From Ischnura elegans (taxonomy: Eukaryota; Arthropoda; Insecta; Odonata; Coenagrionidae), in the NCBI RefSeq assembly GCF_921293095.1, contig NC_060246.1, forward strand, positions 112,572,941 through 112,636,940: a DNA stretch of 64,000 nucleotides, written 5' to 3'. Made by a program: the position numbers and the translations under genes. Shown here in pieces: positions 18,301-49,645 of the stretch (its first letter is position 1; each line of letters opens with the position of its first letter). Below the pieces are notes generated by a model. The model worked only from the letters and a program-made list of their open reading frames with translations, made no database searches and was not told the DNA's origin.

Positions 18301-20587
18301 ACCTTCCATAGTGTAGGATGCCTTTATTTTTGTTTTCACCGTGTTGTAGTTGTGAAAAAGACTACAGTTTCTGCTGCATTACAGCTGGTGTCATCAAGTC
18401 TAAGTACTTAATGCTGTATTGTGCTCACCATTATATAGCACACTGAGGTGTCTCATCTCTGATTGGTTTTAGAGTTTGCTCTTGGGCCTGTAATATCAGA
18501 GTTAGAATCAAATAATGTATTCCTGGTGTTTACCGGGCTGCATATCTAATCCCAACACCCATATTATTTATCAAAATGCATGTTCTCACTCTAATTAGTT
18601 GCAAGGCTGGGCTGCATGAATATTAAAGTCAAAATATGATATCAAGTACTTAGGCCTGAAGAAACCCACTGGAATGCAGCAGAAACTGTCTTTTACAGCT
18701 CTATGATGCAGTGGAAGCTGAAAAATGCTGCTTGCATTGCGGAAGCGCTGCAGAAGTCTTCACACCAACCTTCCATAGTTTATTCATGGTGAGGGTTCTG
18801 CTGTCAGTAAAATTCAAAGAGCAACGTCCATCACGTTACCTGGCCAGTCTAATTTCTTGTCTGAGTTCATTGAAAACTGCAGAAAACAAACAAGCTGATG
18901 AGTTTCTCTGTACCTCTCTTCTAACTGTTGCTGAAGTAGTGAAAAATTTTATGAAGTCTGAGTCTTCAATATTTCTCGTTATTTATTCCATTTGAAGTTG
19001 TGCAAAACATCTTTCCCACGCTTGTGTCTTAACTTTTTTTTGTACCTAGTAGACGTAATAAATAAATGTTTCTTCTAGGTGATACTCTCTTCATTGCTGG
19101 ATGTGGAAGGTTCTTTGAGGGAACTCCTAATCAAATGTACACTGCATTAGTGGAGATATTGGGAAACCTTCCTGACAATACGGTGAGCATTATAGTGGTG
19201 GTTTTGGTTGCTCATTATGTGCCATTGAACTTGTTAAGCATTGAAATTTATCTCTAAAAAACACCAAAAATTCAGTATAGTAATAGAGGATACATGAGAT
19301 GTATCATCACATTTTAGGTTAAGATCCTTAACAAATAATTTCATATTTAAAATTAACAGCAGACAAGGCAAGAACTTCAGGTCAGTTTTACCCCATAAGA
19401 TAATTTTTGTTTTGAAGATTTTTACAGCTTCTTTTATCTATCTTGTTGGCTCCTTTCGGGAAATGCTGTGCTGAAAACATTTTTGTCCCGATCTTATATG
19501 TGATTCGTTATCTCATTGTTGGCCCGATTTGAATTTCCCATGGAAGGCAATAGCCATTAGGCATTAGATTGGGCCAGGAACCCTTTATATATCTGGCTGA
19601 GGTTATATCCATCCACCCAACTGAAATTATTTGGCCTTTTTGCTATTTAGACAGCTTCACATATAAGGCATGGAAGGTAATCTTCTGTCTTCGCCAATAC
19701 CTGTGTATGGTTAAACATTATTTTATGCCCAGGACTGGAGGAGTAATGTTCTGCGACTGCTAATGCCTCCTATTATTTCAATGTTTCCCTCTCATTCTCT
19801 TGAAAATGCTCTTAGTAGGAGGAGTGAAAGGTTGAGTGGTAAATGCTATGGATTGTTGAAATGTGCAAGAGATGGTCATTAAACTTGTTGCAGTGTCCTA
19901 ATGTTTTCTGGTCTCAATTTACTGCTTGCAGTTTAAAGTTGATAAAAAAAATTCTTGAAGGATATATCATTAATTATGACAAATTTATATCCCAGCGGAG
20001 AATGAGTAAAGATATATGGCATTTTAATTCAAAGTAATGTCTTTCTATACCAGAATACTTACTACTTCCTCTAGCTAATGTATATATGTACTCTATAAAT
20101 TATTGATGAAGACAGTTTTAAATATATATGATCTAACAATATTGGGAACTGCAAGTGCATGATTGAAATTTCTATTGCATTTACAGCAAGTGTATTGTGG
20201 TCATGAATACACAATCCAAAACCTGAAATATGCTCAGCATGTGGAACCTGCCAATGAAAATATTCAGGATAAAATGTCTTGGGCCCATTCGAAGCGAAGC
20301 AAAGAAGAACCAACAGTGCCTTCAACCATTGGTAATTATTGTAGCTGTTACCAAATTTTGCCTTATTATTGTCGTAGGTTTCAGTGAAATTTGCTGTTTA
20401 TACTCTGTGAGCCTCGTATGTGTATGAGCATCTCAATGCTTGTTGCTTGCCTATAGGGGAGGAGAAGCTGATCAACCCTTTTATGCGTGTCCTTGACCCT
20501 GCAGTGCAGCAACATGCTGGCCAGAATGAACCTATAGCCACCATGGGATTCATTCGTACCGAGAAGGACAGCTTCAAAGCTCGGTAG
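9364..20587 (+). CDS. HAGH: Hydroxyacylglutathione hydrolase (glyoxalase II), mitochondrial, 7 exons
   Basis: The gene hydrolyses S-lactoylglutathione to lactate and glutathione, the second step of methylglyoxal detoxification, using a two-metal metallo-beta-lactamase site. Coding exons are 9364-9433, 9539-9648, 9743-9864, 15167-15408, 19079-19182, 20187-20331 and 20457-20587. All have GT-AG borders and consistent phases, giving 307 aa, almost the length of human HAGH. Metal ligands are all present: THHHWDH gives H98, H100, D102 and H103; H161 lies in TPCHTSGH, D183 in FTGDTLF and H222 in YCGHEYT. NPFMR near residue 271 is the usual glutathione-side motif. Residues 1-44 form a basic leader without acids until its end, fitting mitochondrial import. 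M45 (ATG at 9601) opens [13 protein letters not shown], the usual cytosolic start. Start 9364 was chosen because exon 1 joins in frame and has A at -3. Intron 3 holds a SINE and intron 4 holds a mariner fossil. Confidence 0.97.
9865..14936 (+). other. HAGH intron 3, first 5 kb
   Basis: AT-rich intron sequence. The short open frames here (for example 9859-10128 minus and 14187-14444 minus) have no recognisable domains and no exon fits the HAGH reading frame. Nothing else is identified. Confidence 0.5.
14937..15118 (-). mobile_element. tRNA-derived SINE in HAGH intron 3
   Basis: Read on the minus strand, the block has a tRNA-like head containing GTCGCGGGTTCGAGTCCCGC, a near-perfect B box. An A-box-like TGGCGGCGGGGTAAAG lies about 50 bp before it, and a tRNA-unrelated body runs to about 14937. 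The cloverleaf is not complete, so this is a SINE and not a tRNA gene. Its head lies only about 50 bp upstream of HAGH exon 4. Confidence 0.7.
15580..16843 (+). mobile_element. Decayed mariner-family element (maT/cecropia-like) in HAGH intron 4
   Basis: The ends share an inverted repeat around AACTAAGTTC, next to TA dinucleotides at 15578-15579 and 16844-16845. The length (about 1.26 kb) is normal for mariner. The 3' half keeps an open frame at about 16448-16714 ([54 protein letters not shown]) that aligns with mariner transposases. The catalytic HDN is replaced by PQNN and the third D by R-S-Y, so the enzyme is dead. Earlier blocks such as [12 protein letters not shown] and [12 protein letters not shown] remain but are broken by many stops and frame changes. 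It is an old neutral insertion, oriented with the host gene. Confidence 0.85.
17240..17345 (-). mobile_element. SINE-like fragment in HAGH intron 4
   Basis: On the minus strand the block reads like a tRNA-derived head: TAACCTAGTGGTATGCTC as an A-box region, then a worn B box around GATTTAATTCCCAGTCCAGG. The tail was not defined. Confidence 0.5.
17455..17590 (+). mobile_element. SINE-like fragment in HAGH intron 4
   Basis: GCAGCGTAGTGGTCAGTAC resembles a tRNA A-box region and GTGATTAGAATCCCAGTCTG resembles the B box. The order and spacing are those of a SINE head. The element is worn and its 3' end is unclear. Confidence 0.5.
17591..19078 (+). other. HAGH intron 4, 3' part
   Basis: No conserved coding or RNA feature was found. 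Open frames at 17640-17855 and 18711-18995 do not resemble any family I know and do not join the HAGH frame. Confidence 0.45.
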
Positions 20588-21110
20588 AAAGCTCAAATTG
20601 TGTGCTTATAGTGTGGAAAGATTGCTATTGTGTTACAAATGGTCGTAGTTGTGGACTAAGTTTTCTTTTGGTATTAGTTTCTGTAATTTCTGTTTGAAGT
20701 ATTGATTGTATGAATTGGAGCGAATATGAATTGTAAATAATTTTTGTATCCTTACTACCTGATTTTGTTGGTAAAATTTTTCTCAAGTAGTTTAGTAGTC
20801 AAGTCATAGCAGAATGGTTACTTTGAAGACTAATACATACGTTCTCCCTAAGAATTGGGCATTAATTTCAATAACTTTTACAAAGAAAATTTTATATTTT
20901 ATTACAAAATCGTACAAAAATTATAAATATAACTAATAAGATGAACTGCATAGCCAAATATGATCTGTAGAAGATTGATAATATCTATGAACTGAAAAAA
21001 CAATTTTAAATTTCGACCAGCTCCAATGTTCACTCAGTTTCACAACATCCAGCACTTCCTACAATAAACATAATCTATCATCACGTCACTTATCTTCAAA
21101 TTCACTCAGG
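20588..21110. other. Convergent 3' ends of HAGH (+) and the INO80F-like gene (-)
   Basis: This 523 bp interval holds both 3' untranslated regions. On the minus strand an AATAAA hexamer (TTTATT at 20898-20903) lies about 210 bp after the INO80F-like stop. No clean AATAAA was seen on the plus strand close to the HAGH stop, so HAGH may use a variant signal or extend further. Confidence 0.6.
20898..20903 (-). terminator. Candidate polyadenylation signal of the INO80F-like gene
   Basis: AATAAA on the minus strand, about 210 bp downstream of the stop codon at 21111-21113. The cleavage site is not visible from sequence. Confidence 0.5.
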
Positions 21111-22422
21111 TCAGCTCGAAGAATCATCCGCTGGAAAATGTGAAAATTTAGGTCGAGAGCTGTACATCTGCATGTCAGCAGAATACTTTTCTTTCTGCTT
21201 CTCATATTTATCATAGTAAACCTGAAAATCAACGAGAGTATGATTGAAAGTGTTTTAGCATGACACTGACAACTGGATGTCTTAAGAATAACGATTTACC
21301 TAACCCCGAGATGCTCGACATAACTTCACTAAATATACCATTAATCAAGGAATCATGAGTAATGAAGAATGAGTAAGTCATGAAATTCGCTCTCACTTAA
21401 ATAGCATTCAGTAAATGATAACATTCACTTACCGTTATTGGGTAACAACAATCCAGAAAGCAGGTAAAAAGAAAATTAACTAAATTTGAGAAATCCATCA
21501 TAATAAAGTGGTAACTCTAAAGAAGAGTTAAATTAGGGCAAAATAAACACTACACAATATCAGAATCAAACCAATGGTGCACAACCTTCTTATCATCATT
21601 GGTGAGACTATTCCATCGGCTGGCCAATAACTTTGTTAGTTCTTGCTTGCTTAAATCTGCCTCTTGACCACTTCCAATATTCGTATACTGCTCGGATACC
21701 AGTGGTCTCTGCTCCTGGCAAAACTGGAAATACGGGTTAGCAGGCCGTTTAGGAGCACTTGGATCCCTGTCTTTTCCATCTTTATTTTTCCTCTTAGAGG
21801 AACTAGGAGTGCCTCCACCAGTACCACCCTTCCCTCTGGGAGTTTTTTCCGAATTTACAGTGGAGGAGGTTGAACTAGAGGCCTGAAAAAGTAACAACTC
21901 ATAAAGACTACTGACAATAACTGTATTTCCATATACAAATACGAGCCACAATAAAATTCTATACCTTAACCTGAGGACTTAATTTGTTCGGCTCTGGATT
22001 CTTGTGTGTCTGAGGAATCAAAACTGGAGGCTCTTCTGCAAGATGGAGCGAAAGGGGAACATTTCTCCAACTATCTCCATGCTTATCCAACCGCGCCATC
22101 AAAAACCTTTTAACAACCAATTTTCAATAAGCAAATGATTAACATACATTATAATCACAATGCTAATGTGCCTCCTTACTTTCTTTCTTTCCGGGCTCTT
22201 CGAAGCATCTTCCGTACTCTTTGAATGCGATTGACCAGTCTCTCGTTGTCCTGGAATATAAAATTGCAACTTAGTAGCAACGACAAAAGGAAAAACACCC
22301 GTAGTATAAATATTATTTAGTACCTGTTGCATTGCGGTGCACCTTTCTAATAGAATATGGAACTTTCTACAGTATGGATCCACTTCTACATCATCTATTT
22401 CATCTTCTGTTTCATCTGACAT
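21111..22422 (-). CDS. TFPT/INO80F-like protein with C-terminal HMG box (probable INO80 complex subunit), 5 exons
   Basis: Exons in order of translation are 22422-22324, 22250-22180, 22106-21971, 21882-21586 and 21221-21111. All have GT-AG borders and matching phases and give 237 aa. Residues 1-15 are strongly acidic (MSDETEDEIDDVEVD). Residues 16-72 include ERLVNRIQRVRKMLRRAR and KERKFLMARLDKHGDSWR, which parallel the helical part of human TFPT (INO80F). Residues 103-141 are a Ser/Gly/Lys linker. Residues 142-221 are an HMG box (DPSAPKRPANPYFQFCQEQR at its start, LASRWNSLTNDDKK, then VYYDKYEKQKEKY from the last exon). Yeast Nhp10 is an HMG-box INO80 subunit, so the combination suits INO80, with nuclear, DNA-binding action as the inferred role. 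The start at 22422 is preferred; an in-frame ATG at 22446 would add eight residues. An unrelated HMGB-type protein is the alternative. Confidence 0.9.
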
Positions 22423-47156: not shown

Positions 47157-48487
47157 CAAGGTTTGTGCCAAAAGTAATGAGCTTCATTTTTTTGCCACGC
47201 GACTGTGCAACGCCACCTGCGCGACTGATTGGAAGTAGTGGGGGGGACTTTAAGCTTGTCAGCGACACCTCGTTCAGTTGCATACGAGCTTTTGGAGCGG
47301 TAGGACATCTTTTTTAGTAAACCTCCGCGCAGTGTCTCGTCGTGGTTAGGATGGAGAGAACTTTGGAGCAACGCTATGCGATAAAGTTTTGCGTCAAACT
47401 TCAAAAGACGGCGAAGGAAACATTTTATTTGCTCACTGAGGCCTTCAAGGATGATTGCTTGTCGTACTCGCAGGTCAAAAAGTGGCACAAGTCGTTCAAG
47501 GAAGGCCGGGAAGAAGTGGCCGATGAGGCCCGTTCTGGGCGTCCATCAACATCGCGAACGGGCGATAATGTCACCCGTGTGCGAGATTTACTGAACAAAG
47601 ACCGCCTGATGAGTGCTCGTTTGATGGCAGAAAAATTAAATTTGAAAAATTAAATTTTTCCGAAAACAGATGTTCATCAAATTGTTTCAGAAGACTTATG
47701 CGTAAGACTCCATGCGTAAGATTTGCGCGAAACTTGTGCCAAAAGTCTAGTCCGACGCTCAAAAACAGCAGCGCGTGGAAGTGTGCAACGAGCTGCTTGA
47801 ACTCTGCGAGGAGGATCCAAATTTCCTTGACAACGTCATCACAAAAGATGAGTCGCGGATCTTTGAATACGATCCGAAGACGAAAAAACAGAGTGCGGAG
47901 TGGCACACGACCTCGTCACCGCGTCAGAAGAAAGCAAGAATGAGCAAGTCCCGCATCAAGTCCATGGTCATCGTGTTCTTCGACGCTAAGGGAATCGTGC
48001 ACTACGAGTTTGTACCACCTGGGCAGAACGTCAACAAGAACTTCTACAAAGAAGTTCTTAAAAGACTCAATCACAGAGTTACCCGCGTCCGGCCAGAGAT
48101 CCAGTCGTCATGGAGACTCCACCATGACAACGCGCCGAGTCACACCGCCTTCGTAGTCAACTCCTATCTGACCCGGATCGGTGTTTCAACGGTGCCACGG
48201 CCCCCCGATGAAGCCCCGGCAGACTTCTTCTTGTTTCCTAGGGTGAAAAGGGAGCTGAAAGGAAAGCATCTGGAGACCCTAGATAACATTTAAAAAACCA
48301 CGACGAGGTGCCTTAACAGCATTCCGCAAAGCGAGTTCCAGAGGGCCTACAATGCATGGAAAACACGTTGGAATAGATGTATAGACGCGGGAGGAGACTA
48401 TTTTGAAGAGTATTAAGTTGCATTATATGTTTGATCAATAAATCTATTTTTTTGAAAAAAGGCTCATTACTTTTGGGACAAACACTG
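47157..48487 (+). mobile_element. Full-length but inactive mariner element
   Basis: The inverted ends (CAAGGTTTGTGCC and its partner CAGTGTTTGTCCC read inward, then AAAAGTAATGAGC on both) differ at three of 26 positions. TA flanks lie at 47155-47156 and 48488-48489. The length is 1331 bp, standard for mariner. It lies 33 bp from the tail of the LINE at 48521. Confidence 0.93.
47351..48416 (+). pseudogene. Mariner transposase, disrupted
   Basis: The N-terminal part (MERTLEQRYAIKFCVKLQK to about 47640) holds the helix-turn-helix region and GRPSTSRTGDNVTRVRDLL. The frame changes between about 47640 and 47712. From 47712 it reads MRKICAKLVPKV, then a TAG at 47748, then a long frame to a TAA at 48291, and the reading continues in the same frame to a natural stop at 48414-48416. 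Catalytic aspartates remain in TKDESRIF, LHHDNAPSHT and APADFFLFP. The usual YSP before the third site is missing, so the spacing between the last two aspartates is 31 where 34 is normal. The protein would be inactive. Confidence 0.9.
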
Positions 48488-48520: not shown

Positions 48521-49645
48521 TACATCTACATCTACATCTACATAATACCCTGCGAGCCACCTCTAGGGTGTTTGGCAGGGGGTGATCAATCACCAGCATG
48601 CAGCATGCATTTGGACTCCCACATGCACACCACACCGTCCAAAAAACGTCCCGTATAATAACAAACTATACTACTATATGCTGTTAGAAATAGAATATAG
48701 AATAGAATTTCAGAAACATGCATTAAGTTTTACATAGGTTAGTAGGCTACACTACAAGTCATGCAATCTATTTACGAGTTCTATTGCTGCCGTTATAATC
48801 TCTTATTGATCGTGGAAAAAATGACATTCGGAATCTGTCTGTTCTACAATCTATCTCTCTTATTTTATTTATATGATCTGATTTTCCGTAGTACGTTGGC
48901 GTCCGCAAGATATGGTTAACTTCGTCAGAAAAGACACTGCTCTTGAGTCTATTTTTCAATCTACGGTTCGACAGAGATTCCCATCCGAGTTTATCTAAGA
49001 GGTCAGTTACACTAACATGACTATCGTAACGACCTTTCACATACCTGGCAGCTCTTCTTTGCACGCGTTCTAACTCTGTTATTAAGCCTTTTTCATGAGG
49101 GTCCCAAACACTGGCAGCGTATTCCAAATGTGGTCTAACGAGGGAAAAGTAGCTAATTTCTCTCACTTTGTCGTCGCACTTTCCTAATATTCTTTTAACA
49201 AAACCAATTTTACGATTAGCTTGACCGGTTATTTCTCGAATATGTTTATTCCACGATAGATCATTATTGAGTCTAACGCCTAGATATTTCACGGATTCAA
49301 CTGCATTTAATTGGGTGCCTCGAATGATATAGTTACGCTGTAGGGAGTAATTCTTCTTCCAGAAATTCATTACGACGCATTTTTCCAAATTTAATTCCAA
49401 CTGCCAAGCATCGCACCAAGCTTGGATAGCAGCAAGGTCATTCGTTAGTTCATCCATATCTTTGCTGGAACGGATTTCTCTGTAAACTACAGCGTCGTCT
49501 GCAAATAATCGTAACTTCTGTGTACTACTTCGCCAATGTCGTTTATATAAAGAAGGAATAGGAGTGGGCCAATGACACTACCCTGAGGAACGCCAGAAGT
49601 GACTCTAACCTCATTGGAGACTGGAGGTAGTAGGAATGAATATAT
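48521..49645 (-). mobile_element. 5'-truncated CR1/Jockey-type LINE with RT fragment
   Basis: The minus strand starts within the reverse transcriptase ([20 protein letters not shown], then [12 protein letters not shown]) and reaches FADDAVVYR with the catalytic DD. A one-base loss near 49515 separates the two blocks. From 49457 a clean 229-codon frame follows (MDELTNDLAAIQAWCDAWQL, thumb segment VKYLGVRLNNDLSW, SVWDPHEKGLITELERVQRR) to 48768. The 3' UTR ends in repeated ACATCT read on the plus strand at 48521-48542. It was inserted as a truncated copy. Confidence 0.85.

Follow-up and report, generated by a model that had tools for sequence, protein, structure and literature searches.

According to passages of PMC6098158 and PMC12403922, the yeast Nhp10 module is located at the N terminus of Ino80; it binds flanking DNA and contributes to the dependence of sliding on the length of that DNA. 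As for array spacing, point mutations in the HMG box of Nhp10 mimic the absence of the whole module (passages of PMC8163753), and this contribution of the HMG box is called minor compared to that of the HSA helix. Passages of PMC6098158 also describe the extreme N terminus of Ino80 as bound by the yeast Nhp10 module and by a metazoan-specific version, and they state that the metazoan module is not required for remodeling. HMG-domain subunits are also described, in passages of the respective papers, for the INO80 complexes of Schizosaccharomyces pombe (Nht1; PMC10341484) and Chaetomium (PMC9733932); we compared these two by description only. In PMC2614481, a table from 2008 lists Nht1 without an orthologue in S. 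cerevisiae and gives two other S. pombe genes as the predicted orthologues of Nhp10, so even the fungal HMG subunits are not joined there.

Passages in INO80 papers set the Nhp10 module apart. They term it yeast-specific (PMC12624141, PMC6098158) or species-specific (PMC8163841, PMC8163753), describe it as missing from human INO80 preparations (PMC6548343), or state that its conservation does not extend from yeast to human (PMC12403922). A table in PMC6770637 lists Nhp10 for yeast only and Amida (TFPT) for human only. Within the open-access literature, including searches for co-occurrence of the names, we found no passage that equates TFPT with Nhp10; this includes passages of PMC6770637, PMC3275488, PMC2614481, and PMC4341892. 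The combination of an INO80F helix with an HMG box, which we describe below, may already be recorded in subscription papers or in eukaryotic protein databases, and it may be ordinary in databases of invertebrate proteins.

We analyzed a stretch of 64,000 nucleotides from the insect Ischnura elegans (contig NC_060246.1, positions 112572941-112636940; hereafter, the window). Five exons on its minus strand, from 22422 to 21111, join in a single frame (a coding sequence of 714 nt) to encode a protein of 237 amino acids. The features of this gene are:

22324..22422, minus strand: exon 1, residues 1-33, with the acidic start and the first part of the INO80F helix; ATG at 22422, donor GT after 22324
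22180..22250, minus strand: exon 2, residues 34-57 (codon 57 is split), the core of the INO80F helix; AG/GT borders; by itself, this exon matches INO80F in Pfam at 38.2 bits
21971..22106, minus strand: exon 3, residues 57-102, the end of INO80F and the start of the linker; AG/GT borders
21586..21882, minus strand: exon 4, residues 103-201, a basic linker rich in Ser, Gly, and Lys and most of the HMG box; no Met; AG/GT borders
21111..21221, minus strand: exon 5, residues 202-237 and the stop codon, with the last helix of the HMG box and the C terminus; AG border and stop codon
22088..22374, minus strand: INO80F domain (Pfam PF24245), residues 17-63, exons 1-3; predicted helix 16-65
21159..21753, minus strand: HMG box (Pfam PF00505), residues 146-222, exons 4 and 5; HMGB1 is the best match in PDB
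20898..20903, minus strand: hexamer resembling a poly(A) signal, 3' of the stop codon; a pattern match only

The exon joins and the introns were inferred from the sequence. All four introns are GT..AG, with lengths of 73, 73, 88, and 364 nt. Each of these lengths leaves a remainder of 1 modulo 3, so retaining any one of the introns would cause a frameshift; in-frame stops are added if intron 2, 3, or 4 is retained, and none are added by intron 1. Upstream of the ATG, there are in-frame stops at 10 and 23 codons.

Three other features of the window are worth recording. C-terminal exons of a hydroxyacylglutathione hydrolase gene lie on the plus strand at 20163-20587 (HAGH_C in Pfam, 51.3 and 43.9 bits), and this gene is tail-to-tail with the minus-strand INO80F/HMG gene. 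Remains of a mariner/Mos1-type transposase are found at 47321-48293 on the plus strand, as two fragments that do not share a frame (HTH_48, 32.9 bits; Transposase_1, 54.5 bits). On the minus strand at 48768-49577, an open frame matches the end of the reverse transcriptase model RVT_1 (33.5 bits) and is probably part of a retrotransposon.

An earlier note on this DNA had claimed that a single 237-residue protein is encoded at 21111..22422 and that one gene combines a TFPT-like helical region with a C-terminal HMG box. The coordinates and the protein are right (five minus-strand exons separated by GT..AG introns), and both domains were found where they had been proposed. When the protein was compared to Pfam, residues 17-63 matched INO80F with 58.2 bits (the cut-off is 25.1 bits; E = 8.6e-16), covering model positions 1-47 of 47, and residues 146-222 matched HMG_box with 50.9 bits (cut-off 25.4 bits; E = 2.2e-13). 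Just five families had hits at E ≤ 1; the others were HMG_box_2 (7.2e-9), HMG_WDHD1 (0.033), and NEMO (0.19). The matches of the protein to INO80F and to the HMG box are both far above chance. The note had also said that its claim would be refuted if residues 16-72 had no similarity to TFPT; such similarity was found, and both the INO80F match and the predicted helix fall within this region.

That helix comes from an AlphaFold2 model built from the single sequence, which was poor overall (mean pLDDT of 63.5, pTM of 0.25). The model contains one long helix at residues 16-65, mostly confident (the block means for residues 21-60 are 86-97). In the HMG part, the predicted helices are 152-159 (a low-confidence stretch), 181-194, and 197-222. 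A PDB search with the full protein gave 48 distinct sequences up to E = 1, with HMGB1 chains at the top (E = 1.4e-12). No chain named Nhp10 or TFPT was among these 48 matches, nor among the 31 matches for a hand-entered sequence of yeast Nhp10 that was not drawn from a database record. The N-terminal 82 residues alone had eight weak matches in PDB (best E = 0.31), and the 237-residue protein had no match in NCBIfam, which is a prokaryotic library.

We then compared the protein to TFPT (also known as Amida or INO80F). A human TFPT sequence, likewise entered by hand and not drawn from a record, scored 62.1 bits against the INO80F model (58.2 bits for the insect protein). It differs in what follows the helix: in Pfam at E ≤ 10, no HMG model matched the hand-entered TFPT, which agrees with the earlier claim that the vertebrate protein lacks an HMG box. 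The insect protein and the hand-entered TFPT are 37% identical over 71 columns, with no gaps. Separately, residues 79-121 of the hand-entered TFPT weakly matched INO80E (E = 0.018), the sole other family at E ≤ 10; the INO80E and INO80F helices may be related.

We searched the genome exon by exon (1.72 Gb in 110 contigs). The INO80F model hit two places at E ≤ 1: one exon of our gene (38.2 bits) and a second place at 24.8 bits. The HMG-box gene is thus the only locus found above the INO80F cut-off, where counts from an exon-wise search are lower bounds. The whole protein had five matches in the genome, and all five lie within its own locus. Domains of other INO80 subunits are present: DBINO, the signature of the INO80 ATPase (78.5 bits), INO80E (51.8 bits), and NFRKB (66.9 bits). 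The Pfam model Ino80_Iec3 had no match in the genome, in a search whose controls were silent too, so this result carries no information. Given the INO80F score, the alignment with TFPT, the single locus, and these other INO80 domains, we conclude that the gene is an INO80F/TFPT orthologue that carries an HMG box. In viral and prokaryotic contigs, there were 21 and 75 pattern matches, respectively, and none were confirmed as relatives, which is expected for an animal gene. The genome also contains 43 COX1-like places that are scattered over long contigs. Most have stops in the standard code, and they are probably nuclear copies of mitochondrial DNA. One of the 43 is open in the invertebrate mitochondrial code; the vertebrate code gives it three AGA stops, of which the third lies where the copy ends. 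This points to an animal whose mitochondrial code is of the invertebrate type. The telomere pattern TTAGG had 0 matches, a result that carries no information.

Nhp10 and the insect protein share their domain order: first a helix, then an HMG box. Nhp10 is a subunit of yeast INO80, and the insect protein would be expected in INO80 as well. Nhp10 differs in having a shorter linker, and its helix has less similarity to INO80F. In the hand-entered Nhp10, residues 7-45 matched the INO80F model with 21.4 bits (E = 2.6e-4), which falls short of the curated cut-off of 25.1 bits. Only three Pfam families matched Nhp10 at E ≤ 10: HMG_box, HMG_box_2, and INO80F. None of 20 altered N termini of Nhp10 (9 random shuffles, 1 reversal, and 10 shuffles that kept the hydrophobic pattern) matched INO80F, in a search where HMMER's filters discard most matches above E of about 0.1.

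We also ran six coiled-coil controls against INO80F. Three zippers had no INO80F match in their full lists. For two tropomyosins, INO80F was not among the best 25 of 39 families or the best 25 of 48 families. The sixth control was the second INO80F place in the genome:

about 1501-1626 of L007 (G000:C16): HAP1_N-like coiled coil, 24.8 bits to INO80F in the genome search, below the cut-off

HAP1_N was the best family for this coiled coil (50.1 bits), and INO80F scored 25.1 bits, higher than for Nhp10. So, an unrelated coiled coil can reach the curated cut-off of PF24245 and can beat the score of Nhp10 without kinship. With 16 families at E ≤ 10, this coil is promiscuous, whereas Nhp10 is not.

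Direct comparisons of the two helices were weak. Using a two-sequence profile, hhalign gave a probability of 3.2% (P = 0.014). In an ungapped profile test, the Nhp10 helix scored 35, which was reached by 14, 7, or 45 of 2000 shuffles (under three shuffling rules), versus 33 for the best window of tropomyosin. BLASTP of the 237-residue protein against the hand-entered Nhp10 gave nothing useful for the helix.

For the HMG regions, BLASTP reported 34% identity between the insect protein and the hand-entered Nhp10 (59.7 bits over 104 residues, with gaps). The gaps reflect a longer loop in the HMG box of the insect protein. We also compared 18 HMG boxes in a hand-made panel; most were entered by hand and not drawn from records, and several are partial. 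Among 17 partners, the best for the Nhp10 box was the insect protein (57.8 bits), followed by NHP6A (57.0 bits) and HMGB1 box B (53.9 bits); the best of seven other HMG boxes from the same genome reached 43.5 bits. In the other direction, the box of the insect protein was most similar to HMGB1 box B (64.3 bits), with Nhp10 second. HMGB1 and NHP6A are stand-alone architectural proteins. They share the HMG box with the insect protein, and HMGB1 is its best match in the panel and among solved structures, but these proteins are not known to have an INO80F helix. A SOX/TCF-type factor is not favored: the genome's SOX-like box, the sole one in the panel, gave 32.0 bits, versus 64.3 for HMGB1 box B. 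When the hand-entered Nhp10 was searched exon by exon against the genome, an exon of another HMG gene, which resembles SSRP1 (by eye), came first (24.3 bits) and the INO80F/HMG gene came second (20.8 bits). A tree of 17 HMG boxes, which leaves 10 of its 14 inner branches unresolved, pairs the insect protein with Nhp10 at 62/88, a support that falls short of the threshold.

How else could these results be explained? One alternative is that two adjacent genes were joined on paper: exons 1-3 would belong to a TFPT-like gene, and exons 4-5 to an HMG gene. The splicing was read from the sequence, and a retained intron 3 would stop the first part after a few residues. However, there is no Met in exon 4 or in its upstream open frame. 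A stand-alone gene for the HMG half would have to start in an exon not seen here, which makes it unlikely. The junction of exons 3 and 4 is in phase 0 with good borders, and just 88 nt lie between them. Since exon 4 lacks Met and the phases fit, we consider two genes to be very improbable and set this reading aside. Another alternative is that the protein is an HMG-box factor unrelated to INO80, with a generic coiled coil as its N-terminal helix. Although unrelated coiled coils do reach the INO80F model at 25 bits, 58.2 bits across all 47 model positions is far higher; outside the HMG box, nothing else in Pfam matches at E ≤ 1 except NEMO (E = 0.19); and the identity to the hand-entered TFPT is free of gaps. 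A generic coiled coil is therefore rejected for this protein as extremely improbable, on the strength of the 58 bits, but the caution stays for Nhp10.

A less improbable alternative, but one that we still think unlikely, concerns the history of an INO80F/TFPT orthologue: the HMG box might have been gained within the invertebrates by fusion with an HMGB-type gene, and the likeness to Nhp10 would be convergence. The insect box is indeed closer to HMGB1 box B than to Nhp10, and the helix of Nhp10 falls below the cut-off and does poorly in the direct tests. On the other hand, the two parts would have to have joined twice, both times in subunits of the same remodeler. Also, INO80F is the only coiled-coil family that the hand-entered Nhp10 matches, and the Nhp10 box scores higher with the insect protein than with the seven other boxes from the genome. 

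In our judgement, the whole protein is likely, though not proven, to be homologous to Nhp10. Under homology, the simplest history starts from an ancestral subunit that already combined the helix with the HMG box, and TFPT would later have lost the box; without homology, the box was gained in the lineage of the insect protein. From three sequences, one each from an invertebrate, human, and yeast, we infer with moderate confidence that the insect protein, vertebrate TFPT, and Nhp10 descend from one subunit, whose HMG box would have disappeared in the line leading to vertebrate TFPT. The earlier note had proposed such a link between TFPT and Nhp10. The shared domain order, the sub-threshold match of Nhp10 to INO80F, and the choice of the insect protein as the best partner of Nhp10's HMG box in the small panel all speak for it, while hhalign, the exon-wise ranking, the tree, the shuffles, and the coiled-coil control were weak or contrary. 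The bridge to Nhp10 is a good hypothesis that is moderately supported.

Based on the papers about the yeast and metazoan modules, we propose that the protein docks through its INO80F helix and holds linker DNA with its HMG box. The helix would pack into the accessory module, at the N-terminal end of the Ino80 ATPase. With the basic and flexible linker, the HMG box at the C terminus would be free to grip and bend the DNA next to the nucleosome, and the subunit would help INO80 to sense the length of the linker, by analogy to the HMG box of Nhp10 in yeast. Overall, we estimate a probability of about 0.7 that this gene encodes a form of INO80F (TFPT) with a DNA-binding HMG box, a helix that docks, a role in linker sensing, and shared descent with Nhp10.

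Two subunits that are usually treated as unrelated, TFPT and Nhp10, may be one, and a single animal protein with both parts provides a testable bridge between them. The bridge predicts that TFPT binds at Nhp10's site on Ino80. It also predicts that invertebrate INO80 has a sensor of linker DNA that is absent from mammalian TFPT. More broadly, we lean towards the view that TFPT and Nhp10 represent a single INO80 subunit of ancient origin, that the accessory module is common to fungi and animals, and that its HMG sensor was kept in invertebrates such as this insect and lost towards vertebrates. If this is true, then the module at the N terminus of Ino80 is not yeast-specific, and vertebrate INO80 would measure flanking DNA differently.
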